Shown here: positions 9,931-43,306 of the stretch, in pieces | Position numbering within the stretch: the first letter of the stretch is position 1 | Layout: every line of letters begins with the position of its first letter | Assembly: GCA_005954745.1 (NCBI GenBank) | Contig: CP040680.1 | Coordinates: 1-64,000 of the forward strand | Direction of reading: 5' to 3' | Source: Halostella pelagica | GTDB taxonomy: Archaea; Halobacteriota; Halobacteria; Halobacteriales; Natronoarchaeaceae | DNA length: 64,000 nucleotides | Translations under genes and position numbers: made by a program | The notes under the pieces: generated by a model | Database searches by the model: none | What the model was told of the DNA's origin: nothing | The model's input: the letters and a program-made list of their open reading frames with translations, nothing else

Positions 9931-10051
9931 TGATACCCACGTCAGACTATGGAACTATCAAACTATCTCTAAACGGAGACCAATTCGGCCAACTTCGCTG
10001 AATGGTTTCTGCGATGTGATCCACTTACCTAAGTGTTAGTTCTGGCTTTAG

Positions 10052-10062
10052 TTATAGTAATA
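10052..10062 (+). promoter_or_regulatory. TATA-like box for the giant repeat-protein gene
   Basis: TTATAGTAATA lies about 45 bases before the GTG at 10102. It falls inside the longer frame that could start at GTG 10033, which argues that translation begins at 10102 after a short leader. Confidence 0.45.
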
Positions 10063-10101
10063 TTACACTTATGTGCTTGGGGTCATTTTAAACGCGTAAC
10101 A

Positions 10102-22100: not shown

Positions 22101-22857
22101 CGATGGTGGAGACAGCGGAGATGACAGCAACGACAGCGAAGACAGCAGTGACGGGGACGAGCGTGATGACACCGACGGCGATGGCCTGACTGACGAGGAA
22201 GAGCGGGCCCTCGGGACGGAGGTGAACAGCACTGACTCGGACGGAGACGGTATCGCTGATAGCGTCGAGACGAGTGGCGGCAGGTCGGTCGATACGGACG
22301 CCGACGGAACCATCGATGCGCTGGACACGGATGCCGACGGGGATGGAATTCCCGACAGTCTCGAAGGGACGGCGGATACAGACGGCGACGGTACGCCAGA
22401 CTACCGCGATACCGACAGCGACGGTGACGGCATCCCCGACAGTACCGAGGGAACCGACGACACCGACGGTGACGGCATCCCGAACTACCGGGATACTGAT
22501 TCGGACGGGGACGGTAGGCCAGACCGGATTGAAGGCACGAGCGACGTAGACGGCGACGGGAGGCCTGCGTATCTCGACCCAGTGAACGACAGCGTCGATG
22601 GGGACGGCGACCCAGAATCCAGTGCGACACCGACTGCGACGCCGACCGGCTCCGCGCCTGCCGACCACGGGAGCTGTGAGCTGTTCGGACTCGACTTCGG
22701 GTCGTTCGTCGTGTGCTGGTACTGGTGGTTCCTCGCAGCCACCGCTGGACTGGTCCTCGTCGGCTACCGCGCCTGGCAACGAGAGACACTCAGTGTCATC
22801 CTCGGCGTCGGGGCAGACAGTTATGACGATGGAACCGGAGGTGAGGGCGATGAGTGA
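10102..22857 (+). CDS. Giant secreted, membrane-anchored type 3 thrombospondin (calcium-binding) repeat protein
   Basis: 4251 residues from GTG 10102. Residues 1-32 form a signal peptide (Arg6, hydrophobic core, cleavage likely after SSVAA); the GTG at 10033 would put 23 odd residues in front of it. From about 33 to 4090 the protein is nearly unbroken repeats of the DxDxDGxxD calcium-loop type (DTDGDGTIDALDTDSDGDGI, STEG..D.DGDGTPNYLD), as in thrombospondin type 3 and EF-hand-like haloarchaeal surface proteins. Near 3962-4006 there are five copies of DDSDGGDSG, then more TSP3 loops, a short Thr/Pro stalk (TPTATPTGS) and one membrane helix near 4205-4225 (WYWWFLAATAGLVLVGY) with a 26-residue acidic tail. 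It probably forms a rigid calcium-dependent fibre on the cell surface for adhesion or shielding. No globular adhesin, enzyme or Ig domain is visible. Two membrane-linked genes flank it (histidine kinase, small membrane protein). Confidence 0.9.
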   Translation: MNTSLRLGVAFLALTLSLSVLTGVVIGSSVAATDIDGDGLTDETETELGTDPNAADSDGDGINDSGETNNGSAIDTDSDGTIDALDDDSDGDGILDSTEGAGDADDDGTANYRDLDSDGDGIDDEDEDALGTDPYDADSDDDGIPDGVETTRLDGTGPGEAVDTDGDGTIDALDTDSDGDGTEDTNEGTRDNDGDGTPDYRDPKDGDGPDGDLDGDGLTNSQERTLGTDANDGDSDDDGIPDNVETNDGNNVDTDGDGRLDAKDTDSDGDGISDSEEGTGDPDGDGTANYRDEDSDGDGILDNTEGTGDTDSDGTANYLSADADSDGIDDSVEGTGDPDADGTPNYADFDSDGDFRNDAEEGTSDADGDGTQNYLDTDSDGNGVPDSRDSDGDNDGDGVLDYLDTDDQDGPDGDPDGDGLTNSKEDSLGTDTQDSDTDGDGISDGTEAPDGTAVDTDGDGTIDALDTDSDGDGLSDNVESNLGTDRTDSDSDGDGISDAVETNDGNSVDTDGDGTIDARDTDSDGDGIADSTEGSGDADGDGTANYRATDADGDSIPDRIEGAADADGDGDANFLDTDSDGDGIDDVDEYTNDPGAGNSDKDTDDDGVPNFLDTDSDADGIPDTTEGQSDSDGDGIPNYLDADSDDDGAFDLNEGTDDADNDGAPNYLDPDNQVGGGFDPNGDDDNDGIPNLVDGFGDADGDGDPNYFDTDADGNGIPDSTEGSDDADGDGTGNNADIDNDGDRIDDDVEGTDDEDNDGTPNYFDPDSDGDGIDDEVEGESDEDGDTTPNFLDLDSDGDGIDDSAETASDADGDGTPNFLDTDADGGGIPDSTEGTGDQDGDGTPDYLDSDTDGDGIGDGTEGSNDLDSDGTPNFRDDDSDGDGVLDSTESALGTDPRDEDSDRDGITDDVETTRPDGTGPGESVDTDGDGTIDALDTDSDDDRIPDSTEGTGDPDDDGTANYRDEDADGDGIADLAESDGGRSVDTDGDGTADYLDTDSDGDGISDRAESDTGLSVSSPPAYLDKDADNDGIPNYRDTDADGDGIPDNTETDDDADADELANYLDRESDGDGISDREETDADTDGDGNPNFLDTDADGDGVDDATEQTLGTDFLNSDSDGDGIDDGTETSDNDGTDPGQAIDTDGDGTIDALDTDSDSPGLPEVSPDSEETSSDEDGDGIPNYRDTDSDGDGFDDDVEGNDDLDNDGTPNYLDTDSDGDGISDADEDAIGTNPFDEDSDADGITDDTEGAGSETDTDGDGTIDALDDDADGDGIPDTDEGGGDKDGDGTLNFRDDDADGDGVPDSTEGTVDTDGDGTADFLDTDSDGDGVSDSTEASSATDRTDSDTDGDGIDDGTETTRVDETGPGESVDTDGDGTIDALDSDSDGDGIDDSTEGAGDTDGDGTANYRDRDSDNPNDQAGDGDLDDGSADEGTTDVDGDGTPNYLDDDNDGDSIPDADEGSLGTDLNDADSDGDGIDDGTETTRTDGTGPGESVDTDGDGTTDALDSDSDGDGIDDSTEGAGDADGDGTANYRDRDSDDPNDQAGDGQLDDGSGTEGTTDTDGDGTPNYLDDDNDGDGILDTDEDENGNGSLDAGETDPNDTDTDGDGLSDSTEGADSETDTDGDGTIDARDTDSDDDGIPDSIEGNDDPDGDGVPNYRDTDSDGDGIDDTDEDEDGDGVLDTGETDPYDPDTDGDGLSDSTEGADSETDTDGDGTIDARDTDSDDDGIPDDTEDQTADDGQATDTDSDNTPDYRDDDSDNDGIADSIEGSDDTDGDGTPDYLDEDSDDDGILDTDEDENGDGVLDAGETDPYDTDTDGDGLSDSTEGAASDTDTDGDGTIDAQDGDSDDDGIDDSVEGDGDPDGDGVPNYRDGDSDDASDSTFDGDGSLDDGSATEGTADTDGDGTANYLDDDNDGDGILDTDEDENGDGSLDDGETDPNDPDTDGDGLSDSLEGADSETDTDGDGDIDARDTDSDDDGIDDSTEDLTADDGEATDSDGDGVPNYRDGDSDDASDSTFDGDGSLDDGSATEGTTDTDSDGTPNFIDSDNDGDGILDGDEDENGDGSLDTGETDPNDPDTDGDGLSDSVEGADSETNTDGTGDIDARDTDSDDDGIEDSVEDVTADDGSATDTDGDNIPDYRDDDSDGDGIADSIEDQTADDGDATDTDGDGTPDFQDTDSDDDGITDDIEDDTVAIGDSPTDTDGDNTPDYLDTDSDNDRIGDDTEDLTDDDSPATDTDGDGTPDYRDDDSDGDGISDDVEDDDNTVGNGQATDSDGDGIPDFQSTDSDGDGIPDTDEDTNANGVLDPGETDPNLADTDGDGIDDDIETTRVDGTDPGESVDTDGDGTIDARDTDSDDDGIPDSTEGAGDADGDGTANYRDRDSDDPTDQAGDGRLDDGSATDGTGDTDSDGTANYLDADNDGDGILDTDEDEDGDGILDTGETDPNDPDTDGDGLSDSLEGADSETNTDGTGDIDARDNDADDDGIEDSVEDLTADDGSATDTDDDGTPDYRDADSDGDGIADSIEDQTANDGDATDTDNDGTPDFQDTDSDGDGIEDDVEDDTEAIDDSPTDTDGDSTPDYLDTDSDDDGIDDSTEDLTAGDGQATDSDGDGVPNYRDGDSDDASDSTFDGDGQLDDGSATEGTTDTDGDGTPNYLDDDNDGDGILDGEEDENGDGSLDPGETAPNDADTDGDGLSDSTEGADSETDTDGDGTIDARDTDSDNDGIPDSIEGTTDTDGDGVPNYRDTDSDGDGITDGGEDSNGNGSVDAGETDPYAVDTDGDGITDDIETTRVDGTGPGEPVDTDGDGTIDAQDDDSDGDGIDDSTEGTGDADGDGTANYRDRDSDDPTDQAGDGQLDDGSSTEGTTDTDGDGTPNYLDDDNDRDGITDSNEDENGDGVLDSGETDPNDADTDGDGIDDDTEGAASDTDTDGDGTIDARDDDSDDDGIPDSTEGVGDEDGDGTANYRDDDSDGDGIPDSTEGTDDVDGDGTPNYLDSDSDADGISDSEEGTEDDDGDGTPNYLDANDEDGPTGDTDGDGLTNNEEETLGTDPTDSDSDDDGIDDSVETDGGTAVDTDEDGDIDALDTDSDDDGISDSAEGTTDTDGDGTPNYRDTDSDGDGIPDSTEGTTDSDSDGVPDYLDSDSDGDGISDGTEGTDDVDGDGTPNYLDTDSDDDGIPDGTEEATDADGDGTPNYLDTDSDGDGIPDSTEGTGDVDGDSTSNYLDTDSDGDGKLDAGEGTGDSDGDGTANYLDPDDDDGPDGDSDDDGLSNTEETALGTDPDSADSDGDGINDFIETDEGIPVDTDGDGTIDALDTDADDDGIGDGTEGTEDRDGDGTPNYRDTDSDDDGITDTTEGATDSDGDGVADYLDTDSDGDSIPDSTEGVGDADSDGTPNYLDSDSDGDDIPDSTEGTDDADSDGTPNYLDTDADGDSIPDSTEGTDDADGDGTPDYIDTDSDDDRVPDSQEDSLGTDPTSADSDGDGINDFIETDGGDSVDTDGDGTIDALDSDSDSDGIPDSTDGTSDADGDGTPNYRDTDADGDGIPDSTDGTSDADGDGTPNYRDTDADGDGISDSTEGTDDADSDGTPNYLDDDSDGDGIPDGTEGTADIDGDSTSNYLDTDADGDGTPDSEEGPGDADGDGTPNYLDPDDDDGPDGDSDDDGLDNDEERALGTDPNSADSDGDGIDDRIETDGGDTVDTDGDGTVDALDTDSDDDGIPDSIEGTADTDSDGTPNYRDTDADGDGIPDSTEGTTDTDGDGVSNYRDTDSDGDGIPDRAEGTDDADDDSTPNAFDRDSDGDGIPDATEGADDVDGDGTPNYLDPVDTDGPDGDTDDDGLTNGEETTLGTDPSDADSDGDGINDFVETNGGSAIDTDDDGSIDALDTDADGDGIPDSTEGTTDADGDGTPNYRDTDSDGDDILDSTEGTTDSDGDGTPDYLDPDTDSDDGGDSGDGDDSDGGDSGDDSDGGDSGDDSDGGDSGDDSDGGDSGDDSDGGDSGDDSNDSEDSSDGDERDDTDGDGLTDEEERALGTEVNSTDSDGDGIADSVETSGGRSVDTDADGTIDALDTDADGDGIPDSLEGTADTDGDGTPDYRDTDSDGDGIPDSTEGTDDTDGDGIPNYRDTDSDGDGRPDRIEGTSDVDGDGRPAYLDPVNDSVDGDGDPESSATPTATPTGSAPADHGSCELFGLDFGSFVVCWYWWFLAATAGLVLVGYRAWQRETLSVILGVGADSYDDGTGGEGDE
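17086..19000 (+). repeat. Long-period internal repeat in the giant gene (offset 1389 bp)
   Basis: The block that starts at 17086 (IETTRVDGTDPGESVDTDGD, then TANYRDRDSDDPTDQAGDG) is repeated from 18475 with almost the same bases for about 500 bp; the offset is 1389 bp, exactly 463 codons. Earlier related blocks start near 14170 and 14550. A second long repeat links about 16560-16880 and 17690-17940 (TADDGDATDTDGDGTPDFQD). These are unit duplications above the basic repeat. Confidence 0.65.
20662..20829 (+). repeat. 84-bp tandem duplication (2 copies, 28 codons each)
   Basis: Copies 20662-20745 and 20746-20829 differ at only a few third positions, for example ACTAGTGACGCT against ACCAGTGACGCC. 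Each encodes GIPDSTDGTSDADGDGTPNY plus RDTDADGD. This is a recent unit duplication. Confidence 0.85.
21985..22119 (+). repeat. 27-bp tandem repeat, five copies, encoding DDSDGGDSG
   Basis: Five consecutive 27-base units; the first four are identical and the fifth differs at its last base. A degenerate sixth unit follows. The flanking TSP3 loops are not conserved at this DNA level, so this Ser/Gly/Asp linker is young and likely to vary in copy number between strains. Confidence 0.9.
22837..22844 (+). promoter_or_regulatory. Shine-Dalgarno for the gene at 22850
   Basis: GGAGGTGA ends five bases before the ATG at 22850 and lies inside the end of the giant gene. It fits translation of the small membrane gene from the giant gene's transcript. 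Confidence 0.65.
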
Positions 22858-26925: not shown

Positions 26926-28248
26926 TCACCGATGGTGGACTTCCGCGGTGATCTCGGTGGCCGGTCGAAGTTGAATTGACGGAATGAACGTCAGCGGCCC
27001 ATCGGTGGTCACGTCAAGGGTGACGTGGCCGACCATTGTTGCCAGCGCTAACGTCAACTCCTGACGGGCGAAGTCGGCACCGATACAACTGCGGGGTCCG
27101 CCGCTGAACGGGAAGTAGGCGTACTCCGGGCGGTCGACGCTGCGGGTCCATCGGTCGGGAACAAACTTCTCCGGTTCGTCCCAGAATCGCTTGTCTCGAT
27201 GAGGGACCCACTGGGGAATCAGAAACTGGGCCGCTGGGGGCAACTCGTAGCCATCCAGCGTCACAGATTCAGTCGCCTGCCGGTTGATACCTGTCGTCGG
27301 CGGGTAGAGTCGGAGGGTTTCATCGACGACATATTGCGTGTATTCGAGGGCGTCGTAGTCCGCGATGGTTGGCCGGTCCCCCTCGACAACTTGGTCGTAT
27401 TCCTCGCAGAGGGACTCATACACGTCGGGATGGTCGGCAAGCAGATACCAAACATGGGTGAGCGCACCCGAGGGGGACTCGTGGCCTGCCAATAGGAATG
27501 CAACCAAGTTCTGCTTGACCTCTGTACGTGTCAATTCACCATCTTCGTGGGCGGCAAGCAACATCGCGCACACGTCCTCGTTGGTCTCTGTCTCTGCATA
27601 TTGCCGTTCGGCGACAAGGTCCTCGACAAACGTATCAAGATGCTGTACCGCTCGACGGAAGCGGCGCTCTGTTGGCGTCGGTATCCAGTCCGGGAGCAAC
27701 TGGCCGGGTCTGCGGAAGTTGGTCCGGTCAACGAACGCGTCTGCTGCTTCAATAACTACGTCCTCCTGCCCGCGAATGTCCTCATTGAGAAGTGTCTCAG
27801 CTAAAATCTGAACCGTCAGCCGGCGAATCTCGGGATGCAGGGCGAATCGCTCACCCTCGTCCCACTCGTCGATAAATCGCGCTGTCACCGCCGCCATGCG
27901 GTCGCCATAACTGGTGATGCTCTCACGGGTGAACGCCGGATGTGACGCTCGTCTGAGGCGTTTCCACCGCTCACCCGTTGCGGTCGTCATAGCCGCATCT
28001 TCAATTCCCTCGAAGGATTGTTGCTGTTCCGGGCCGATGGTGAACTTGTGCTGGTCCTCGACGAGTATCTGCTTGATAAGTTCCGGGTGGGTCACCATGT
28101 ACAGGGACTCGTCCATGAAGCGGAGGCGAACGAGGTCCCCGTGGGTAGCCCACGATTCCATCGCTCTGACCGGGTCCCGAGAAAATGCTAATCCGTTGCC
28201 TAGGATCGGGATACCAGCTGGAGATGGTGGATCCCCAGTCTCGCTCAT
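26926..28248 (-). CDS. Cytochrome P450
   Basis: 440 residues from ATG 28248; the frame opens 20 codons earlier, but the P450 N-terminus (proline-rich PPSPAGIPILGN) fits the later start. Diagnostic features: helix I AGHES (254-258) in place of the usual AGxxT, the ExxR pair E310-TL-R313, PERF-like PDRW, and the heme ligand Cys388 in FSGGPRSCIGADFA. All are intact, so an active monooxygenase is likely. It has no membrane anchor, like soluble archaeal P450s. No ferredoxin partner lies beside it. The substrate is unknown; a terpenoid, fatty-acid or xenobiotic target is typical of such enzymes. Confidence 0.92.
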   Translation of the reverse strand: MSETGDPPSPAGIPILGNGLAFSRDPVRAMESWATHGDLVRLRFMDESLYMVTHPELIKQILVEDQHKFTIGPEQQQSFEGIEDAAMTTATGERWKRLRRASHPAFTRESITSYGDRMAAVTARFIDEWDEGERFALHPEIRRLTVQILAETLLNEDIRGQEDVVIEAADAFVDRTNFRRPGQLLPDWIPTPTERRFRRAVQHLDTFVEDLVAERQYAETETNEDVCAMLLAAHEDGELTRTEVKQNLVAFLLAGHESPSGALTHVWYLLADHPDVYESLCEEYDQVVEGDRPTIADYDALEYTQYVVDETLRLYPPTTGINRQATESVTLDGYELPPAAQFLIPQWVPHRDKRFWDEPEKFVPDRWTRSVDRPEYAYFPFSGGPRSCIGADFARQELTLALATMVGHVTLDVTTDGPLTFIPSIQLRPATEITAEVHHR

Positions 28249-28439
28249 ATCACCGTCTTTCGGGTGCGCCGTCTTAACACTATTCCGCCGTGGCCCGGAC
28301 AGAACCATGCTGGCCCTTATTGTGACAAACGTATACGGTTCGCGGTTGGTCCGGAAACGACGTACTACAGTCCGTATGCAACGGTACTGCTACGGGATGA
28401 GGCGAGACAATCAACCCACGTTTCGTCGACAGGAGTTCG

Positions 28440-29927: not shown

Positions 29928-30120
29928 CGCATCTTTTGTCTGGCCACGCCGATTCCTGCATTCACTCTCTGAATGACGAGTGGAGATGTCATGTATGAAC
30001 TATCATGGAATATTCCCGAGAGAATCTAACCGCTCCATATGGAAATGCAATTATATGTATATAGCTGTTGATCACTCTTATGCATTGTTTTCTGCGCCCG
30101 GTAGCTACATCCTTCACATG

Positions 30121-30381
30121 TTAGCGTACAAGAGAGAGTGCCGTGTCGATATCTCCATGCCAGGGGTTACTGTGTCCGGGCAGGAGCGTCACCGACCCCA
30201 ATCCTTCGAAGCGAACGAGCGATGCTTTGGCTTCCTCGTGGTCATCGTCGGCCGAACCGAGTAGTTGCGGGTCTCCCTCTTGTTGCGTGAAGATATTCCG
30301 CGTGGCGAGTGCATCGCCACAGAAGAGGACGTCGCGGTCCTTTATGAACAACGTACATGACCCCGGGGTTCCCTCTACAGG
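30121..30381 (-). pseudogene. MBL-fold hydrolase C-terminal fragment
   Basis: The minus-strand frame PVEGTPGSCTLFIKDRDVLF then CGDALATRN, then GLGSVTLLPGHSNPWHGD is the second half of a glyoxalase-II/lactonase-like MBL protein. The metal-binding D in GDAL and the H in PGHS are present. The HxHxDH front half is absent. It directly follows, in frame, the stop codon of an MFS fragment, so two gene tails have been joined. Confidence 0.65.
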
Positions 30382-30672
30382 TCAGTCAAGCGAGTGGGAT
30401 GCTTCCTCTTTTGTCTCGTCTTCCACCGAGACTTCGTCACCAAGTTGGGCATTCGGGAGCGTGAGTGCAACCACGAACCCGGTTGCCATAATCAGTATTG
30501 CTGCCAGGAATACCGCGCTGAAGCTGTTTTCAAGCGCGGTTATCACGACCTGGAGCGCTTCCAGCGACAGGTCGATGAGTATTGACGGGGTAATTTCTCC
30601 GCTGGCTTCGACGAGCCGGTGCCTCGTCGTTTCATCGAGGTTAACGGCCGATATATCGGATCGGACCCTGTC
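30382..30672 (-). pseudogene. MFS transporter C-terminal fragment
   Basis: No start codon frame. The sequence NLDETTRHRLVEASGEITPS, then a membrane helix (FSAVFLAAILIMATGFVVALTL) and an acidic tail ending EEASHSLD is the last part of a 14-helix drug/proton antiporter (DHA2 type). Upstream in the same frame is a TGA at 30673-30675. Everything before it is missing. Confidence 0.5.
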
Positions 30673-30879
30673 TCAACCGTGCGAGACCCAGTTTTCGAAG
30701 TTGTCCGATTGGTACTGATGGAGGAGGGGTTGAAGGGAGAATTCCATATCTACCTTTTAGTCAAAGATTTCGACCAGAGAAACTCTAATCTCTGAAAGGG
30801 AAGATCTACACGATCCGGAACCCATATGTATAGACGATCTGCTCATCACAGTCCACAGTTTCAGTCACAAGAGCGAAGG

Positions 30880-30885
30880 TATAAA
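30880..30885 (+). promoter_or_regulatory. TATA box for the first luxE-like gene
   Basis: TATAAA centred about 27 bases before ATG 30910 is the classic leaderless spacing. It supports 30910 as the start instead of the upstream ATG at 30826. Confidence 0.55.
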
Positions 30886-30909
30886 CAGCTGTCTCCGGTT
30901 CCCTGGGAT

Positions 30910-31977
30910 ATGTCTGGCCTCAAACAGTTGCTCTCTGGACCACCTTTTGAACAGTACGACGAGGGACGATTCTTTCGGGCACTTACTGAATCTCTCGAGA
31001 GATGGAAACAGAACGACCTCTACAGACGAAAGCTAGAACGCTCCGAGGTCGATGGTCCGGTAACGTCGTGGGGCGATGTACATCAGTTACCGACGATCGG
31101 AATGCGGGAATTTAAGCAGCATCCAGAAGAGCTTGCGATCGACGAACTCAACCCGGACCAAGCACTCTACAGTAGTGGGACGACCTCCGAGTCGAAGAGT
31201 TTTGCTGCTCGATCGACAAAGACACTAGAGATACACCAGGGCAACTTAGCATCGTTCTCACGAGCCATCATCGGCGACGTTGATTACGCTGCCGCACTTG
31301 GTGTCCCTCGTGGCGATCTGGCCCGACTCCCCGCAGATGTGAGTCGCCGTGCTCTGTTCAGATATCTACTCTGGCTGATGGAGCCACACGATGCGTCGTT
31401 TTTCCTGCGCGTCAGTGGTAACAAGGAGATCGAGCCGGAGTACGACCGTCTCTATGAATATCTCGACCAACACAGCGGTAAGGGGGTGCTGAAGGGATCT
31501 ACATCCGGGATCGCTGCCTTCTGCAATTATCTGGAGGAGCAGGATGCATCCCTTGATCTTGGCGAAGACGGGATGGTCATAACTGGTGGTGGATGGAAAG
31601 GTCAATCAGAGATGACACGAGATGAGCTTCGGACGTTAATCGCGCGTCAGTTTGGGATACAGGAGGAGAACCAACTTGACTTCTATAGTGCGACAGAGTT
31701 TACATTCTTCACCGGGAGCAAGCCGGGGGACGATAACCCGAGTCTGAAGCGCGTTCCCGCGCAGGCCTATTGTTATATTGCTGATATCGAGACGTTCAGG
31801 ACACAAGGTGTCGTTGAACCAGTGGCGAACGGAGAAGAGGGTCTGCTTGTCGTCGTTGATCCACTCAACCGAAGCCACCCAGGAGTGATTCTAACGGACG
31901 ATGTGATGCGAAAAATCGGGGGTGAATACGGTCAAGACGTACGAATCGATCACATGGGACGCTCAACGAGGATATAG
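30910..31977 (+). CDS. luxE: LuxE-like acyl-protein synthetase/acyltransferase (copy 1)
   Basis: 355 residues from ATG 30910, chosen by alignment with copy 2 (MSGLKQLLSG against MSAIERLVRH) and by the TATA box at -27. It belongs to the LuxE/acyl-protein synthetase group of ANL adenylating enzymes: nucleotide loop YSSGTTSESKSF (residues 88-99) and GGGWKG before the FYSATEFTFF region. Bioluminescent bacteria use LuxE to activate a fatty acid and hand it to LuxC for reduction. The C-terminal cysteine that accepts the acyl group in Vibrio LuxE is not seen; the cysteines here are in AFCNYL and AYCYIAD. Followed by copy 2 and a luxC-like gene. Confidence 0.85.
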   Translation: MSGLKQLLSGPPFEQYDEGRFFRALTESLERWKQNDLYRRKLERSEVDGPVTSWGDVHQLPTIGMREFKQHPEELAIDELNPDQALYSSGTTSESKSFAARSTKTLEIHQGNLASFSRAIIGDVDYAAALGVPRGDLARLPADVSRRALFRYLLWLMEPHDASFFLRVSGNKEIEPEYDRLYEYLDQHSGKGVLKGSTSGIAAFCNYLEEQDASLDLGEDGMVITGGGWKGQSEMTRDELRTLIARQFGIQEENQLDFYSATEFTFFTGSKPGDDNPSLKRVPAQAYCYIADIETFRTQGVVEPVANGEEGLLVVVDPLNRSHPGVILTDDVMRKIGGEYGQDVRIDHMGRSTRI

Positions 31978-32132
31978 GGTCTCTCGGCCTTATTGAATTC
32001 CTCCGCCGCTGGCATCCGGAATAGACGCTTTACTTGGTACTTACAGTTAAATCAGATTGAAACCAGCAGACATACAAAACCGCAAGACTCGAAAAGGGGT
32101 TCAACAGAACCGAACACACTCATTGGGAAAGC

Positions 32133-32140
32133 CTAAAATG
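32133..32140 (+). promoter_or_regulatory. TATA-like box for the second luxE-like gene
   Basis: CCTAAAAT is centred about 27 bases before ATG 32163. The 185-base gap after copy 1 and this box suggest a second promoter inside the cluster. Confidence 0.45.
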
Positions 32141-32162
32141 GCAGGCGAATAACATAATTCTT

Positions 32163-33215
32163 ATGTCCGCTATCGAACGTCTTGTTCGACATGACCCACT
32201 CACCTACGATTCGACATCCTTCTTCGATGCGGTGAACGCCGCACTGACAGAGTGGCGAAAGAACGACCGCTATCGGCAGAAACTGGAGCAATCTGAGTTC
32301 ACCGACGATATCGAGTCTTGGGCTGATGTCCATTCCCTTCCCACAATAGATATGCGGGAATTCAAGACACGTCCCGAGGAACTCGCTATCAAAGAGTTAG
32401 ACCTTGAGAAAGCCTTCTACAGTAGTGGAACGACATCCGATACGAAGAGTTTCGCTGCACGGACGGATCGTGGAATCGAGTGGGAGAAACATAAGACGGA
32501 ACGATATGCCGACGAACTGATTGGCGATGTGGATTACTCTGCTGTACTTGCGCTTCCGGTTCCTGAACTTGAGAAATTACCGACTGACATGAGTCGCCGC
32601 GGCATCTTCCGGAAAATCCTCTGGGTGAAGGGCGACAAGTCGAAGTATTACCTCGAGATCGAGGATGACGCGATGGTCCCTGATTTCGAGAAACTACTGA
32701 CTGACCTCAAACAGCAGAACGGCCGTGGTATTCTACAGGGCGCGACCACACAAGTCCATGACTTCTGTGAATTCCTCGCTGAGCGGGATGAATCAGTTGA
32801 TCTTGGCGAAGATGGTGTTGTTCTGGTCGCCGGCGGGTGGAAAGGCGAACAGCATAAAACTAAGAAAGAACTGCGAGCGGACTTTGCTGAGTATCTCGGA
32901 GTACAGCCAAAGAACGTGATGGACGTCTATGCGACCACTGAATTCACCTTCTTCACCGGAAACAAGCCGGGTGACGATACTCCTGATCTGAAACGTCTCC
33001 CATCTCAGGCCTACGGCTACGTCGCCGATGAAGAAGCGTTCCACAAACGCGGCGTCGTCGAACCAGTGGACGTAGGAGAGACCGGTTTCTTGGTCATCGT
33101 TGACCCAACAAATCTCGATTACCCAGGGATCATCCTGACTGACGATATCGTCCGTAAGCACGGCTCGGCATATGGTGAAGATACTAGGATTGAATATGTT
33201 GGACGAGCGGAATGA
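32163..33215 (+). CDS. luxE: LuxE-like acyl-protein synthetase/acyltransferase (copy 2)
   Basis: 350 residues, a clear paralogue of copy 1 across its full length (SSGTTSDTKSFAAR at 87-100; AGGWKG at 223-228; DVYATTEFTFFTGNKPGDD; VVEPVDVGETGFLVIVDPTN; ILTDDIVRK). The single cysteine of the protein is C202 in HDFCEFLAE, in the same place as the FCNYL cysteine of copy 1; if an acyl-cysteine forms, this is the only candidate. The gene ends 13 bases before the luxC-like gene. Two synthetases for one reductase suggests different acyl chain ranges or a heteromeric complex. Confidence 0.85.
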   Translation: MSAIERLVRHDPLTYDSTSFFDAVNAALTEWRKNDRYRQKLEQSEFTDDIESWADVHSLPTIDMREFKTRPEELAIKELDLEKAFYSSGTTSDTKSFAARTDRGIEWEKHKTERYADELIGDVDYSAVLALPVPELEKLPTDMSRRGIFRKILWVKGDKSKYYLEIEDDAMVPDFEKLLTDLKQQNGRGILQGATTQVHDFCEFLAERDESVDLGEDGVVLVAGGWKGEQHKTKKELRADFAEYLGVQPKNVMDVYATTEFTFFTGNKPGDDTPDLKRLPSQAYGYVADEEAFHKRGVVEPVDVGETGFLVIVDPTNLDYPGIILTDDIVRKHGSAYGEDTRIEYVGRAE

Positions 33216-33228
33216 ATACGTATAATCC

Positions 33229-34641
33229 ATGAGTAGAGAAGGCGATTCCAAGCAACTACAGGCACAGTATCGAGGCGGATGCAGGGTTGAGAACATGGAG
33301 TCCGCCGATCGGGCGGACGATATCCCGAACGAGATCCCCGCGGAGGCCTACGTTCTTGAAGAAACTGAACAGAAGTCATTCCCCGAGAACCCCCGTCGTG
33401 CAATCCCCGACGAACAGCCACTCACAGATCTCTCACCGGATCGCCGGGTCGAACTCCTCTCTGAGATGGTTACCGTGTACGCCGACCGACTAGCCACTGC
33501 TGAGGTGCTCGAGAGCCTCGAGGAGATCACCGGCGAGTCTCGGGACATGCTTGAATACGACATCCAGGTAATCCGGATGCTATCCGATCCAGACGTGTTG
33601 TATTCAATGTATGATGTGGGGGATACGAACCTCGCTAGATTTATCGAAGAATGGCGAGAAGCAGACGGCTTCTACCAGAGAGCAACATCTCTGGGACGCG
33701 GTGTGAACATTAATGCCGGCCACAACGTCAGCACGGTTGTTGTACCTGAGATTTGGCAAGTACTCTCCGGAAATGCCGTTCTCCACAAGATGCCCTCGAG
33801 CGATCAGGTCACGCTTCGTGTACTCCACGATGTCTACGCCGAGTACGACAACCCTGTAGCGAATACCTGTCGAATTTCTTATTGGCCTGGCGGGAGCGAA
33901 GATCTTGAGGAGAACCTGTTCGCATCAGACTACGTCCTCGCATGGGGTGATGACCCAACGATTGACGCGATCCGGTCTCGACTCGCACCAACGACCAAGT
34001 TCGTTCCATTCCACTTCGAGTTCGGCACATATCTCGTTGATGCGGAGACCCAGCACGATTACGACCGCGAACTGCTTCAGCGAATAGCAGCGGACTTCTC
34101 ATGGGGAGATCAACTCCTTTGCTTCTCCCCGCTCGTCATGGTTATTGAGGATACGGATGCCACTACAGACTTCTTGACCGATCTCGCCACTGTCTTAGAA
34201 GAGTACGAAGCCGAATATAATATGGGGGCGGTCCCAGACAAAGAGCGGATGGGAATCACGCGATCAAAGAAAACCGCAAGAGACTACGGGAATCTAATCT
34301 CTGACTGGGAGAACAAGACTACTATCGTCCAGCGAGACGGCCTTGAACGTTCCGACATCTCTGAATTCCATAGCTTCCGCTACATCCAGGCTCACCGGGT
34401 GGATAGCCTTGAGGAATCTTTGGACGAGGTCGGCCACGTCAGAAATCTTCAGGAATTTATCCTCGCGACGAGTGAGGAGAGTCGCCAGGAGCTCAGAGAA
34501 CAGATTCTTGAGACGAACGCCAAGCGAATTGTCTCTCCTGGGGGCGCACCGCCAACACTCCCGATCCCGTGGGACGGAAAGCACGCTGTCAATGAACTCG
34601 TTCGATGGGTAACGGACGAATACCATCATGAACAGGCGTGA
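33229..34641 (+). CDS. luxC: LuxC-like acyl-CoA reductase
   Basis: 470 residues. The aldehyde-dehydrogenase-like LuxC fold is visible: GRGVNINAGHNVSTVVVPEI, GNAVLHKMPSSDQVTLRVLH (coenzyme-binding strand-loop), VLAWGDDPTIDAIR and WGDQLLCFSPLVMVIED, where Cys298 is the expected nucleophile that holds the acyl thioester. LuxC enzymes reduce acyl-enzyme to fatty aldehyde with NADPH. ATG 33229 lies 13 bases after copy 2; an internal ATG 22 codons on is also possible. No luxA/luxB luciferase or luxD thioesterase is in the window, so the product aldehyde probably serves lipid, wax or secondary metabolism. Confidence 0.88.
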   Translation: MSREGDSKQLQAQYRGGCRVENMESADRADDIPNEIPAEAYVLEETEQKSFPENPRRAIPDEQPLTDLSPDRRVELLSEMVTVYADRLATAEVLESLEEITGESRDMLEYDIQVIRMLSDPDVLYSMYDVGDTNLARFIEEWREADGFYQRATSLGRGVNINAGHNVSTVVVPEIWQVLSGNAVLHKMPSSDQVTLRVLHDVYAEYDNPVANTCRISYWPGGSEDLEENLFASDYVLAWGDDPTIDAIRSRLAPTTKFVPFHFEFGTYLVDAETQHDYDRELLQRIAADFSWGDQLLCFSPLVMVIEDTDATTDFLTDLATVLEEYEAEYNMGAVPDKERMGITRSKKTARDYGNLISDWENKTTIVQRDGLERSDISEFHSFRYIQAHRVDSLEESLDEVGHVRNLQEFILATSEESRQELREQILETNAKRIVSPGGAPPTLPIPWDGKHAVNELVRWVTDEYHHEQA

Positions 34642-34678
34642 CTGATCGGGCGCTTACATCTCGACAAGTATCGGTGAG

Positions 34679-35017
34679 GTGTATGCTCTCTTCTATAATA
34701 GCGCGGCGTCTCCCGGTTCTGAGAAGGCGACTCACGTAATGAACTTCAGGGCTGCGTTCGATCGCGTGCTTGATGACCTTGCGGTAGAACACTCATTCGG
34801 CTATCCAGACTTCCAGAGTTCGGAGTTCTTCGAGTTTGAGTCAGCAGAATTCCTCCTCAACGAACAGCTCCGTGTGTATGGCGTCCATATCCACAGCTAC
34901 CTGGGACAGCGATCGTTTTGCTTCTTCAAGAACGCCGGCTTCTATTCGGACTATCTGCAGATAATGAATGCCTCTGTTCTCGGTGCGAACGCCGCGATGG
35001 TCGCAATCGACAGATGA
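34679..35017 (+). CDS. Small unknown protein downstream of the luxC-like gene
   Basis: 112 residues from GTG 34679, or 92 from ATG 34739 (MNFRAAFDRVLDDLAV). Aromatic-rich (FQSSEFFEFESAEF, QRSFCFFKNAGFYSDYLQ) and without membrane helices. I do not recognise a family. Composition and codon use resemble real genes. It lies 37 bases after the luxC-like gene and overlaps the next small ORF by four bases (ATGA), which fits an operon member. It could also be a remnant of a larger enzyme. Confidence 0.4.
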   Translation: MYALFYNSAASPGSEKATHVMNFRAAFDRVLDDLAVEHSFGYPDFQSSEFFEFESAEFLLNEQLRVYGVHIHSYLGQRSFCFFKNAGFYSDYLQIMNASVLGANAAMVAIDR

Positions 35018-35178
35018 TGTCAAGAACGAGGGGTCAGAAACCATTCGTTCCTCCGACGACCTTCGAACGCTGGTCCGAGGAAGTTCCTGCTGACCAATTC
35101 AGATGGAATCGCGCATTACATCCCCTCTATGCTGGATGTAGTTTCAACTTCACGCCCTGGTATTTTGTATCGCGGTAA
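35014..35178 (+). CDS. Possible small ORF, 54 aa, end of the lux-like cluster
   Basis: ATG 35014 overlaps the preceding stop (ATGA) and the frame reads 54 residues (TRGQKPFVPPTTFERWSEEV, then RWNRALHPLYAGCSFNF). No known motif. It may be a genuine coupled small gene, or the continuation of the upstream protein after a frameshift. Confidence 0.3.
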   Translation: MMSRTRGQKPFVPPTTFERWSEEVPADQFRWNRALHPLYAGCSFNFTPWYFVSR

Positions 35179-35468
35179 ATGATATACGAGTTCATTTAGT
35201 GCGATAATCCGGCCCCAGAAGCCTCTAAAATCCATAATTCTGGCGATCGTCCGAATACTTCGAGTGGTCCTGATTATGCTCGTAATCACGACCACTTTGA
35301 AGTATCCCGCCGCTGTCGGGGAAGCACGAATGCTACAACCGCCTCACGACGCCGCTTCCCCCAGGTAGAGCCGCCAAGAACGGGGTTCGATATCTTTCTG
35401 GGTATCCTCAGCTGAGCTCAGGGCGATACCGAAGAAAAGGATTCGATATAGGACTAATAACCTCAATC
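35179..35468. other. Gene-free stretch after the lux-like cluster
   Basis: No convincing frame. It contains an 8-base inverted repeat, GGGGAAGC (35319-35326) and GCTTCCCC (35352-35359), with a 25-base spacer; nothing else recognisable. Confidence 0.4.
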
Positions 35469-35476
35469 TATATTAA
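35469..35476 (+). promoter_or_regulatory. TATA box for the integrase operon
   Basis: TATATTAA is centred 27 bases before ATG 35499, typical of a leaderless haloarchaeal promoter. Confidence 0.6.
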
Positions 35477-35498
35477 GACACAGCCGGAACGATGTTGT

Positions 35499-36038
35499 AT
35501 GACCGAAGACGGATCGAACTCCGAGAGCCTGATGAACCGTCAGACCACGGGTGAAGACCGCGCGCGGATGGTCGCCCGACAGCTGTCGGAGCCGCGAACG
35601 GCAAACTGGATCGCCTCTGAAGCGGGATGGTCACACGAGCCAACGAAGCGCGTTCTCGAGCGGCTCGTCGACGACGGGATCCTCCACCGGGACGAGAGCG
35701 GTATACACACCACGTACTACCCTGATTATCGCCGTCAAGCGATGCAGGAGGCGATGCGTCTTCGGGACAGCGGGCACACTGTCGAGGAACTCACGGACCG
35801 TCTCGCCGATATGAAGACGCAGATCCGCGACTGGGAGGACGAATTCGACGTCGAGTCACCGAACCAACTTCGCGGAACGCTCACTGACGAATCTCTTGAC
35901 GCTGACGAGGAAGACCGTCGCCGTGAGATCGCCCGCGAGTGGGAGCACCTTCAACGGCGTATCCAGATCGTCGGCTTCGCCATCCGCGAATGGGACTTTC
36001 TCGCGCCGACGACAGAGCCTGCCGAGGCCAACAGCTAA
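35499..36038 (+). CDS. Winged-helix protein, first gene of the recombinase operon
   Basis: 179 residues. Residues 18-75 are a winged helix: RARMVARQLSEPRTANWIAS, EAGWSHEPTKRVLERLVDDG, then ILHRDESG. The rest is a long charged helical region (LTDRLADMKTQIRDWEDEF and the final RRIQIVGFAIREWDF), probably a coiled coil for dimerisation. Haloarchaeal DUF7342-like proteins have this layout and are usually the first gene of a pair. The next gene starts three bases after the stop. A repressor/antitoxin role is the likely reading. Confidence 0.75.
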   Translation: MTEDGSNSESLMNRQTTGEDRARMVARQLSEPRTANWIASEAGWSHEPTKRVLERLVDDGILHRDESGIHTTYYPDYRRQAMQEAMRLRDSGHTVEELTDRLADMKTQIRDWEDEFDVESPNQLRGTLTDESLDADEEDRRREIAREWEHLQRRIQIVGFAIREWDFLAPTTEPAEANS

Positions 36039-36041
36039 CGG

Positions 36042-36500
36042 ATGTCTGTTCCGCATCCAGGTGGTGATCCGAACACGAACCTCTATGCTCAGCTAAAGCG
36101 TGATGTCCTCGACCGTGTTCCACAGGTCACGGCCGTCGAGTACGTTCCTGACGATATCGAGGCCAAGCAGCTGCGAGCGATTATCGATCCGGCTCGCCTT
36201 GATCCCCCGACGGGCCCTGAGTCATCGGAACTGACTGTCAAGTGGTATCGACAGGATCCAGACGATTGGTTCCGTATCAACTACACGGACTCGAACACTG
36301 GCTTTCACGCCGGCTGGCACCAAGACGAGGACCATCCTGATCTCGGACAGGCGCATTTTCAGTACTCAACCGCCGATACGGAGGACCGCTGGGGGATTTC
36401 ATTCGAGCACGAGACCCCCTCCCTGATCCTTTGGGAAATCATCGAAGCGCTTCTCGAGGACGTCCGTCCCACCTACCAATACGGGAACGAAGAATCATGA
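36042..36500 (+). CDS. Putative TumE-like toxin or partner protein
   Basis: 152 residues, translated right after the winged-helix gene and overlapping the recombinase start by four bases (ATGA). The body YVPDDIEAKQLRAIIDP, ELTVKWYRQDPDDWFRINYT, DSNTGFHAGWHQDEDHPDLG, AHFQYS and a final helix SLILWEIIEALLEDV resembles the haloarchaeal proteins related to TumE (DUF6516), the toxin half of a two-gene module. This match is from memory of the pattern only. If right, it is a toxin-antitoxin pair sitting inside the integrase operon, a classic stabiliser of mobile elements. Confidence 0.45.
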   Translation: MSVPHPGGDPNTNLYAQLKRDVLDRVPQVTAVEYVPDDIEAKQLRAIIDPARLDPPTGPESSELTVKWYRQDPDDWFRINYTDSNTGFHAGWHQDEDHPDLGQAHFQYSTADTEDRWGISFEHETPSLILWEIIEALLEDVRPTYQYGNEES

Positions 36501-37738
36501 CTCCCGGCACACCTCGAAACCGTTCTGATCAGTCACTCGCGAGTTCCTTCGAGCGCTATCTCCAGGACAAGGGGAAAGGCCGCGGTGGCGACGGCGGAAA
36601 CTACCGCCGGAACGCTGCGCGCGAGCTCGAGCGGTTCGCCGAGTGGGCCGCCGGCGACCGCGGCGACGACTGGACCGGGGTCGTCCCCGACGACGTCGAT
36701 CGCGAACCCTCCTTCGAGGATCTCGACGAACGTGTCTTCCGCGAGTACGCCCGGCATCTCGCTGGTGACCGTGGACTCAAGCAGAATACCGTACAAACCT
36801 ATTACCGCTATATCTCTGCGTGGTGTGGCTGGTGCGTCAACGAGGGATATCTCGAAGCCCATTACGCCCAGCGGGCAAGTGCGATGGCACCGCTCCCGGA
36901 AGACGACGGCCGCAAGCCCGGCGACCAGCAGGCCTGGACGTCCGAGCAGCGCCACGCCCTCACCCGCCACGTCGAGGAGCGGGCCCGCGACGCCGTGGAG
37001 GCGTACACCACACTCCCGGACGATACTGACCTCCTCGACAAGCAGCGAGCACGCTACGCGGCGCTGAAGGCTGCTCGTGACCGGGCGCTAGTGTTCGTTC
37101 TCGCGTACACGGCCGTTCGTGTCGGTGAACTCCTCCGGGATCCGAACGACCCGCGCCGACGTGGCGTCCGCTGGGAGGACCTCTCGCTCGATGAGGGGAG
37201 TATGGACGTCTACCGGAAGAAACAGCAGTGGGACGCCGCCAGTCTCCCCGACCCAGTGATCTCGCCGCTGCGAAGCTACCGGAAGCTGATGGACCCGCCG
37301 ACGGAGCGCTGGCCGGTGTTTCCGACGTACGACCAACGGACGCTTGCGGGTCTAGTCCAGGATGAGCTCGCCGACCGAGGGGAACGCCCAGAAGCAATTA
37401 CTGAGCGTCGTGAAGAGTACGCTCGCGACCTCCTGCTGGCGCTCGATGAGGATATCCGGCCGCCGTCGATTACGACGGACGGCGCGCGGTCAATTCTCCA
37501 ACGGCTCTCAGAAACTGCAGAGATAGACATCGACCATCCGAAACACGATTACCTTGCTCCACACGGCGGCCGGCGTGGAATGGGTGAAGTTCTCGTTCGA
37601 GCATTCGGATACACGGTTGCCGCCCGGTATCTCGACAATTCAGAGGAGATGGTGAGAGAGCGGTATTCACATATCGAGGCCGGAGAACTCGGTGATGTCG
37701 CTACTGAGGCGCTCGAGGAGATCGATAGTATACCGTAG
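36497..37738 (+). CDS. Tyrosine recombinase (phage-type integrase), complete
   Basis: 413 residues from ATG 36497, which overlaps the previous stop by ATGA. Residues 10-130 form the core-binding domain (SFERYLQDKG, FREYARHLAGDRGLKQNTVQ, then TYYRYISAW). The catalytic domain shows R208 in AYTAVRVGELLR, H356-GG-R359 and the nucleophile Y390 in RERYSHIEAG; K241 in VYRKKQQW may be the active-site lysine. All signature residues are present, so it is probably active. A 5'-truncated second copy lies at 57.2 kb in the same orientation. No tRNA or att core was found near either copy. Confidence 0.92.
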   Translation: MTPGTPRNRSDQSLASSFERYLQDKGKGRGGDGGNYRRNAARELERFAEWAAGDRGDDWTGVVPDDVDREPSFEDLDERVFREYARHLAGDRGLKQNTVQTYYRYISAWCGWCVNEGYLEAHYAQRASAMAPLPEDDGRKPGDQQAWTSEQRHALTRHVEERARDAVEAYTTLPDDTDLLDKQRARYAALKAARDRALVFVLAYTAVRVGELLRDPNDPRRRGVRWEDLSLDEGSMDVYRKKQQWDAASLPDPVISPLRSYRKLMDPPTERWPVFPTYDQRTLAGLVQDELADRGERPEAITERREEYARDLLLALDEDIRPPSITTDGARSILQRLSETAEIDIDHPKHDYLAPHGGRRGMGEVLVRAFGYTVAARYLDNSEEMVRERYSHIEAGELGDVATEALEEIDSIP

Positions 37739-38453: not shown

Positions 38454-39345
38454 TCAGTAGCGGAGCAGTCGCATCCCGTTGAGGATGACGAGGAGAACGC
38501 TAGCCTCGTGGACCAGCATTCCCGACGCGAGGGTGACGTAGCTGGTGAGCACGCCAGCGAAAAGAACGGTCACGGTCAGGACCGCGAGACCGACGTTCTC
38601 GAGGATGTTCCAGCGCGTCGCTTTGCTCAGTTTGACTGCGTAGGGGGATGCGTTCGAGGTTGTCGGCCATCAACGCCATGTCAGCAGTTTCGATAGCGGT
38701 GTCCGTTCCCGCAGCACCCATCGCGATGCCGACATCGGCAGTGGCCAGCGACGGCGCGTCGTTGATGCCGTCGCCGACCATCGCGACGACATGGCCGTCG
38801 GCCTGGTAAGCCTCGATGACGGACTGCTTGTCCTCGGGGAGGAGTTTGGCGCGGTACTCGTCGATGCCGACCTCTTCGGCGACTGCGGCGGCCGTCCGCT
38901 CGTTGTCGCCGGTGAGCATGACCGTCTCGATGCCGGCGTCCTGAAGCGCCGCGACGACGTCGGGTGCGGTCTCTCGGAGTTCGTCCCGCAGCGCGATTGC
39001 GCCGATGATATCCCCATCCCGGGCGACGTGGACGACCGTCTCGCCGCGCTCCTCACGCTCGCGGACGTAGTCGGCGACCCGACTGGGGACGTCGATGTCG
39101 CGGTCGTCCAGCAGTGCGCGGTTGCCGACGACAACTTCGTGGCTATCGGTATGGGCGATGACGCCCTTGCCAGCGACCACGTCGAAGTCGTCCGGATCGG
39201 GGATCGACTGGCGCCCCGCGTCCGTATCGTCCGCCTGGGTGACCGCCGTTCCACCGTCCGTCGCGGCGGTCGGACTCTCGTGGGCCGCGTCGACGATGGC
39301 GTCAGCGAGGTGGTGTTCGCTCTTCTTCTCGTTGGACTCGGAGAC
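38454..39345 (-). pseudogene. Metal-transporting P1B-type ATPase, C-terminal half, frameshifted
   Basis: On the minus strand the frame carries the nucleotide-binding and hinge part of a P1B ATPase: KKSEHHLADAIVD, DDFDVVAGKGV, GIETVMLTGDNERTAAAVAE and VVAMVGDGINDAPSLATADV. After MADNLERIP a run of five G/C bases near 38648 shifts the frame; the last two membrane helices continue in another frame (AVKLSKATRWNILENVGLAV and NGMRLLRY) to the TGA at 38454. The metal-binding N-terminus, the first six helices and the phosphorylation motif are missing. The front is joined to a different gene near 39345. Zn/Cd/Co or Cu specificity cannot be told. Confidence 0.85.
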
Positions 39346-39583
39346 GAATTCCCTCCTCTGTGTTGCTGTCCTCCACAACGTCAACGACCTGTGGAGTCGC
39401 ATCAGGATCCAGAACCGTCAGTTCGTCATCGTCGGTGACGATTCCGTATCCGCTTTCGACGCAATGACCCATCATCGCGCAATCCCGTGAGTGGGTCCTG
39501 GCCTTTTCAAGGAGATCATCGCGGGCGTTCTTCCGAACACAGCCGACGTCGATAACGTATCCCTCAAGCGCTTCTGGTGCCAT
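39302..39583 (-). CDS. Small hypothetical protein, C-terminus probably altered
   Basis: ATG 39583 gives 93 residues: GYVIDVGCVRKNARDDLLEK, SRDCAMMGHCVESGYGIVTD. The cysteines (C18 and the CAMMGHC pair) suggest metal or redox binding. It overlaps the broken ATPase by about 40 bases in another frame, and its last residues (RVQREEERTPPR) come from ATPase DNA. It seems to be an intact front with a replaced tail. Confidence 0.45.
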   Translation of the reverse strand: MAPEALEGYVIDVGCVRKNARDDLLEKARTHSRDCAMMGHCVESGYGIVTDDDELTVLDPDATPQVVDVVEDSNTEEGIRLRVQREEERTPPR

Positions 39584-42326: not shown

Positions 42327-43306
42327 ATGGAACGGACGGAATACGCGATCCTCGCGGTCATCGGGCTAGCGACCGTCGGTATTGGCGTATTCACCACGTC
42401 AGAACCGCTCTCGACGTTCTTCGTCGAGAGCACGCAGGAGTTCCTGACCACCACAGCGGCGATGGCATAGATCACGTGGTGGGCGATCGTCATCGGGTTC
42501 GCGATTGCTGGCGGCGTTGAGGCCTGGACCTCTAACGAGGAGGTATCGGAACTGCTGGAGGGGCACGGACCACGTGAAATCGGGTACGGATCACTGTTCG
42601 GATTCGGCTCGTCGTCGTGTTCGTACAGTGCTATCGCGACTGCCAAGAACCTCTTCAAGAAAGGCGGCTCCGCGGCAGCGACCCTCGGAGCCTTCATGTT
42701 CACCTCGACCAACCTCGTCATCGAGATCGGCGCGGTCATCTGGATCCTGCTGGGCTGGCAGTTTCTTCTCGCGGACATCATTGGCGGATTTACGCTCATC
42801 GGCCTGATGGCAGCCGGTTCGTCTACGTGGTCCCCAACGAGATCGTCGAGCGGGCCCGCGAGAACGTCACCGACGAGGGGGACTCGAGCGTCCAAGACCC
42901 CGTCTGTGGAATGGAGGTCGACCCCGACGATGCCGACTACTCCACCGAGGTTGACGGCGAAACCTACTACTTCTGCTCGCAATCGTGTAAAGAGAGCTTA
43001 GACCCCGAGGACGCGAACACAACCGTCCGTGAGCAGGCGACGTCGCTGTCGGGGTGGAAGGCGCTCGCGGACAAACAGTGGAAGGAGTGGGGGATGCTCT
43101 GGGACGAGATCGCGATTGGCTTCGTCTTTGCCGGCCTTATCGCTGAGTTCATCCCCGAACAGGTGTGGACGTCGGTGTTCTCGGGTCCCACGTTCGGACT
43201 GCCAGTGTACATCTTCTGGACTGCAGTGCTCGGCGCAGTCATCGGCGTCGCGACGTTCGTCTGCTCGGTCCGAAACGTCCCGTTCGCACACACTAAGCCG
43301 CATTGA
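42327..43306 (+). pseudogene. Permease (DUF318/ArsP-like) with YHS domain; one stop and one frameshift
   Basis: ATG 42327 gives a first membrane helix, then TAG at 42468-42470 (likely Trp TGG). The same frame continues ITWWAIVIGFAIAGG, then the pore-forming FGFGSSSCSYSAIATAKNLF and two helices. Near 42813 one base is lost, and the protein goes on as FVYVVPNEIVERARENVTD. A YHS metal-binding domain is then inserted (DPVCGMEVDPDDADYS and YYFCSQSCKESL), followed by the second helix pair and FVCSVRNVPFAHTKPH. Permeases of this family export organoarsenicals or related species. The YHS insert suggests a metal or thiol sensing step. Non-functional as read. Confidence 0.7.

Follow-up and report, generated by a model that had tools for sequence, protein, structure and literature searches.

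What use might a haloarchaeal plasmid have for lux genes if light is not their output? The question is posed by a stretch of 64,000 nucleotides (nt) from Halostella pelagica (contig CP040680.1, positions 1 to 64,000; hereafter the window), in which three consecutive intact open reading frames (ORFs) on the plus strand, luxE1, luxE2 and luxC, occupy positions 30,910–34,641. The answer to which we give rather better than even weight is that they encode an ATP- and NADPH-dependent, plasmid-borne carboxylic acid reductase of the LuxC–LuxE kind, metabolic rather than luminous, in which acyl-AMP would reach LuxC directly or via coenzyme A (CoA).

Family membership and active sites

The genes luxE1 (30,910–31,977, plus strand; 355 amino acids) and luxE2 (32,163–33,215, plus strand; 350 amino acids) encode LuxE-type acyl-adenylating enzymes, which are 49% identical to each other. 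They are followed by luxC (33,229–34,641, plus strand), a LuxC-type acyl reductase gene of 470 codons, or 448 if read from the ATG at 33,295. Against PF04443, LuxE1 scored 56.3 bits (E = 3.3e-15) and LuxE2 50.4 bits (E = 2e-13), both above the Pfam cut-off of 24.9. LuxC scored 113.2 bits against PF05893 (E = 1.7e-32; cut-off 21) and covered profile positions 10–401 of 401. With their frames intact and all three scores above the cut-offs, these genes agree with a preliminary description of the locus as two complete LuxE-type genes and one LuxC-type gene in a row.

The best NCBIfam family for both copies was LuxE (63.6 bits for LuxE1 and 51.8 bits for LuxE2), with no PaaK match reported there; the same scores lie below the 550-bit cut-off of the LuxE equivalog of luminous bacteria (NF052244). 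In the PDB, a profile built from both LuxEs had a sole match, the Photobacterium LuxE chain 7xc6_E (E = 2.2e-16), and nothing else, CoA ligases included, appeared up to E = 1. The LuxC profile matched 7xc6_A (E = 2.5e-49). Its next matches, at 0.007 or above, were unrelated epsin-type domains, and no ordinary aldehyde dehydrogenase was among the PDB sequence-search matches for LuxC. The likeness to the LuxC–LuxE complex is thus one between sequence profiles, and at that level only the 7xc6 chains were convincing; unrelated ANL ligases and ordinary aldehyde dehydrogenases, which the preliminary description had named as the top matches that would speak against it, were not found.

In the known system, LuxE forms acyl-AMP and transfers the acyl moiety first onto its C-terminal Cys364 and from there to Cys286 of LuxC (YDQQACFSTQ), where NADPH reduces the LuxC thioester to the aldehyde (PMC8301110). 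The window LuxC keeps the corresponding residue. Its Cys298 (WGDQLLCFSPL; codon TGC at 34,120–34,122, plus strand), already proposed as the nucleophile, aligns with the acylated cysteine of Photobacterium LuxC (FYDQQACFSTQ), and on this alignment it is the predicted acyl acceptor. The column is invariant in an alignment of 18 LuxC sequences, and the window protein retains DQxxC(F)S. The adenylation motifs are likewise kept in both aligned LuxEs: the SSGTTS loop, GG(W)KG, Yx(T)TE and LTDD.

Light is not expected from this set, in line with the preliminary description, because no luxA, luxB or luxD lies within the window. No match to the LuxD-type family PF02273 turned up in the genome, and no control matched it either. 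The genome encodes nine luciferase-like flavin oxidoreductases of PF00296, none inside the window and two on this plasmid outside it. PF00296 is a broad oxidoreductase family which also has matches in Haloferax and Methanosarcina, and membership in it does not argue for light.

Both LuxE copies lack the cysteine arm

We aligned the two window LuxEs with 17 comparators (7 bacterial and 10 archaeal), nearly all of them encoded beside a LuxC. The acyl-cysteine of the tail is present in 17 of the 17 and absent from both window copies, as had been claimed from comparison with Vibrio. The comparator tails read KGC(S) in Pantoea and Azospirillum, GCC in Priestia, I-x-C-A in Pseudomonas, Novosphingobium, Actinokineospora and Streptomyces, and RGC or RSC in the archaea. 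Both window proteins end 2–4 residues past the conserved GR that precedes this tail. Of the 367 positions of the NCBIfam LuxE profile, the match reached position 327 in LuxE1 and 331 in LuxE2, versus 364–366 in Pantoea, Azospirillum and Priestia. As the copies are only 49% identical and yet stop at the same aligned place, the loss of the arm is probably old and common to both.

It had also been suggested that the copies share one other cysteine instead. They do share one (C205 in LuxE1 and C201 in LuxE2), which occurs in none of the 17 comparators. However, Photobacterium LuxE has a cysteine in the same column while using that of its tail. We therefore see no sign that the shared residue has taken over as acyl site, and it is not a distinctive replacement.

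Expression signals and selection

A T[AT]5 box lies 26–32 nt upstream of both luxE starts; such a box has a chance of 1.3% per position in the region. The TATA-like box of luxE1, TATAAA, is at 30,880–30,885 (plus strand), about 30 nt before the ATG, and that of luxE2, TAAAAT, at 32,134–32,139 (plus strand), 29 nt before it. Both boxes fit leaderless haloarchaeal promoters, which is what had been predicted for each luxE copy. Since luxC starts 13 nt past the luxE2 stop and has no TATA-like box of its own, it is probably co-transcribed.

Between the LuxE genes, the first, second and third codon positions differ by 0.39, 0.27 and 0.63, respectively. This pattern indicates that the copies have diverged under purifying selection since the duplication.

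Distribution and relatives

A conserved haloarchaeal neighbourhood, for which the preliminary description had proposed a survey, is not supported. In 392 sampled genomes of Halobacteriales, a part of that larger order, neither a protein resembling this LuxC (E up to 1e-6) nor a LuxE above the Pfam cut-off was found outside the window's own genome, so that no other sampled haloarchaeon has luxE-luxE-luxC. A pattern scan of 84,980 species genomes, which used patterns from one related pair and is far from exhaustive, returned five bacterial LuxCs, about 25% identical, besides Salinibaculum litoreum itself. Viral contigs held no close relatives of the lux genes. Over plasmids and genomes together, in searches that include this non-exhaustive scan, close relatives were seen in S. 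litoreum only. In trees, the window LuxC forms a very long branch in no supported group and the LuxE pair a clade of its own.

Outside Halobacteriales, clear LuxC-type matches were present in 12 of 393 sampled genomes of Halobacteriota, 10 of which carry a LuxE gene directly upstream. The placement of luxE immediately before luxC is a common order in bacteria as well as in these Halobacteriota. Because both groups carry such pairs, a light-free lux reductase is no novelty: luciferase-free LuxE–LuxC is a known and widespread arrangement, archaea included. What appears to be unique within this sample is the duplicated, armless LuxE pair.

In two of these Halobacteriota (L091 and L096) an AMP-binding ligase and a short-chain dehydrogenase (SDR) join the luxE-luxC operon, and one of the two operons also has a split transketolase; they may belong to a surface-glycan or lipid pathway. 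In another Halobacteriota genome (L099, 5401–7914, minus strand), the LuxC frame is 837 amino acids long, with an extra region beyond LuxC, and adjoins genes for a LuxE and a major facilitator superfamily transporter.

Proposed route and alternatives

In the reductase that we favour, LuxE1 and LuxE2 would use ATP to convert a carboxylic acid into acyl-AMP. As neither has the cysteine arm, the acyl group would have to go straight from acyl-AMP to Cys298 inside a LuxE–LuxC complex, or pass through CoA on its way to LuxC. With NADPH, LuxC would reduce the thioester to an aldehyde, which a dehydrogenase encoded elsewhere in the genome may convert to an alcohol. We infer this activity, the transfer route, the complex and the cofactor; activation followed by reduction to the aldehyde is proposed because the adenylation site and the LuxC nucleophile are both kept. 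The preliminary description gave a fatty aldehyde or alcohol, or a reduced isoprenoid acid, as the likely product; the evidence favours neither a fatty acid nor an isoprenoid acid as substrate. A more specific version, which we put forward only tentatively, is that a paired LuxE1–LuxE2 adenylates some acid, perhaps an isoprenoid or another acid of haloarchaea, and hands the acyl group straight from acyl-AMP to the LuxC cysteine, so that the acyl-cysteine is dispensed with.

Several observations weigh against a working reductase. With the arm gone, the canonical route may no longer operate. The LuxC sequence is highly divergent, with 22–25% identity and a branch length of 2.45, and its asparagine motif AGN reads AGHN in an ambiguous alignment. 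A shift by one residue retains the asparagine (AGHNVS vs. AGNVP), and a change from asparagine to histidine is not claimed. The AlphaFold models of LuxE and LuxC are poor, with mean predicted local distance difference test (pLDDT) scores of 37 and 49. Beside the lux genes of the window there is no gene for an SDR, an acyl carrier or an acyl source.

The main rival, which overlaps the CoA branch of the favoured route and which we regard as a serious though doubtful candidate, makes LuxE1 and LuxE2 acyl-CoA ligases and LuxC an acyl-CoA reductase, with free acyl-CoA always in between and no need for LuxE–LuxC contact, much as PaaK-type CoA ligases would work with a fatty acyl-CoA reductase. Loss of the arm takes away the protein-thioester step, PaaK-type relatives function without an acyl-cysteine arm, and LuxC proteins are named acyl-CoA reductases. 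The sequences themselves, however, match LuxE (64 and 52 bits in NCBIfam) and not PaaK, and the PDB search brought up no CoA ligase to E = 1. Acyl groups might also be handled without any reduction, if the LuxE–LuxC set loaded acids on another thiol or amine and Cys298 served as an acyl carrier or transferase. The missing arm, the divergence of LuxC and the absence of an adjoining aldehyde-using enzyme would all suit such a machine, but LuxC matches the whole reductase profile, its C-terminal half included (positions 10–401), and we consider this reading very unlikely.

The missing arm could instead be a sign that the genes do not work, or that their sequence has been misread. On the former account, which seems unlikely to us, an import is decaying: the arm was lost after the pathway fell out of use, and the genes are on their way out. 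Gene fragments on the flanks, low GC, occurrence in one species only and long branches speak for such decay. Three intact frames, copies that end at the same point, the selection pattern, active-site motifs that are kept and TATA-like boxes at both luxE genes speak against it. The latter account, that the arm was lost to a sequencing frameshift or is encoded elsewhere, either in a different frame downstream of luxE1 or in the luxC ORF, by its N-terminal GGC, we find scarcely credible. The luxC ORF does start with YRGGCRVENMES, slightly like a LuxE tail (GCCAINLEKF), but 11.7% of the GC-starting 13-mers of the window score equally against known tails and the frame-3 tail of luxE1 scores like chance, so both candidate tails were rejected. 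Moreover, the stops of the two copies align with each other, and in this region the plasmid's other assembly is in agreement.

The interest of the favoured reductase lies in the arm. The acyl-cysteine of LuxE has been described as what carries the acyl group between activation and reduction, and all the other LuxEs compared, bacterial and archaeal, retain it; an armless pair with a kept active site is thus a natural test of whether that carrier is needed. If it works, it would be a compact, salt-tolerant acid-to-aldehyde reductase. Among the haloarchaea sampled, no other LuxE–LuxC set was seen. The case is built on one species and on its sequence.

Plasmid setting and neighbouring features

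The window is collinear at 99.99–100% with plasmid unnamed1 of S. litoreum HD8-45 (CP046867.1; 316,107 bp, circular), and its own replicon (316,071 bp), judged from this match, represents that plasmid, or a sister of it, assembled separately. The three-gene segment has a GC content of 50–54% vs. about 58–65% in the flanks. GC at third codon positions (GC3) is 55–60% in luxE1, luxE2 and luxC vs. 67–69% in neighbouring genes. Among the matches listed, none aligned another plasmid's DNA with the stretch from about 30,370 to 35,064. This unique segment abuts, on the left, a fragment of a metallo-beta-lactamase (MBL)-fold metallo-hydrolase gene (30,120–30,369, minus strand; 79% DNA identity to a Halobaculum roseum plasmid gene) and, on the right, the start of an integrase module common to about 100 haloarchaeal plasmids (35,064–35,400, plus strand). 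Because of the low GC and these two borders, the lux segment has the look of DNA imported next to a mobile module.

The module itself (35,064–37,738), with a conserved non-coding stretch upstream, encodes a helix-turn-helix protein, a small protein and an integrase and is widespread, recurring in about 100 haloarchaeal plasmids. The integrase beside the island (36,431–37,738, plus strand) is of the tyrosine-recombinase type (phrog_1 integrase, 1.2e-9) and is annotated as a phage integrase in matching plasmids.

Two possible partners of the lux genes were considered. An ORF of 112 codons with a GTG start (34,679–35,017, plus strand), 37 nt downstream of luxC, is a doubtful gene and gave no family match in profile searches and no relative among plasmids. 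The cytochrome P450 gene at 26,926–28,308 (minus strand; PF00067, 9e-79), whose best NCBIfam matches are terpene-type oxidases (albaflavenone, pentalenene), adjoins a gene for an ArcD arginine/ornithine antiporter. It had been named as a possible shared partner to look for and was rejected: it is on the opposite strand, beyond arcD, in DNA of normal GC (GC3 of 0.67 vs. 0.55–0.60).

Elsewhere in the window, a plus-strand ORF of 4274 codons (10,033–22,857) consists almost entirely of acidic repeats of the DxDxDG type, similar to thrombospondin type 3, and has a C-terminus that looks transmembrane; it is a candidate giant surface protein. Pieces of a metal-type P-type ATPase gene and a related region (38,500–39,402, minus strand, and 42,617–43,306, plus strand) look broken up compared with the genes of other plasmids.

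Comparison with known systems

Aeromonas flagellar glycosylation islands carry a luxE-luxC set without light and with reductive enzymes nearby (PMC7874193), and in the kind of gene set they resemble the two Halobacteriota operons with an AMP-ligase and an SDR. The plasmid luxE-luxC genes of Pantoea and Azospirillum are non-luminous, like those of the window, and have reductive enzymes nearby; unlike in the window, their LuxE keeps its KGC tail. The sets of all three bacteria are accompanied by genes for an acyl carrier protein, an SDR or glycans, with Aeromonas likened here by description and not by sequence.

The pairs in Halobacteriota outside Halobacteriales (G601, G441, G525, G529, G406 and others) share with the window an adjacent luxE then luxC. 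They differ in having a single LuxE with an RGC tail motif and, in the two scanned operons, an AMP-ligase and an SDR among the neighbours, and in trees they are not close relatives of the window genes. Compared with the Photobacterium/Vibrio set, the window has two LuxE copies, no luxD/luxAB cluster, no arm of the Cys364 type (PMC8301110) and a distant sequence. With the fatty acid reductase of those bacteria (7xc6) it nevertheless shares the same two families, an acid-activating LuxE and a LuxC with a cysteine nucleophile.

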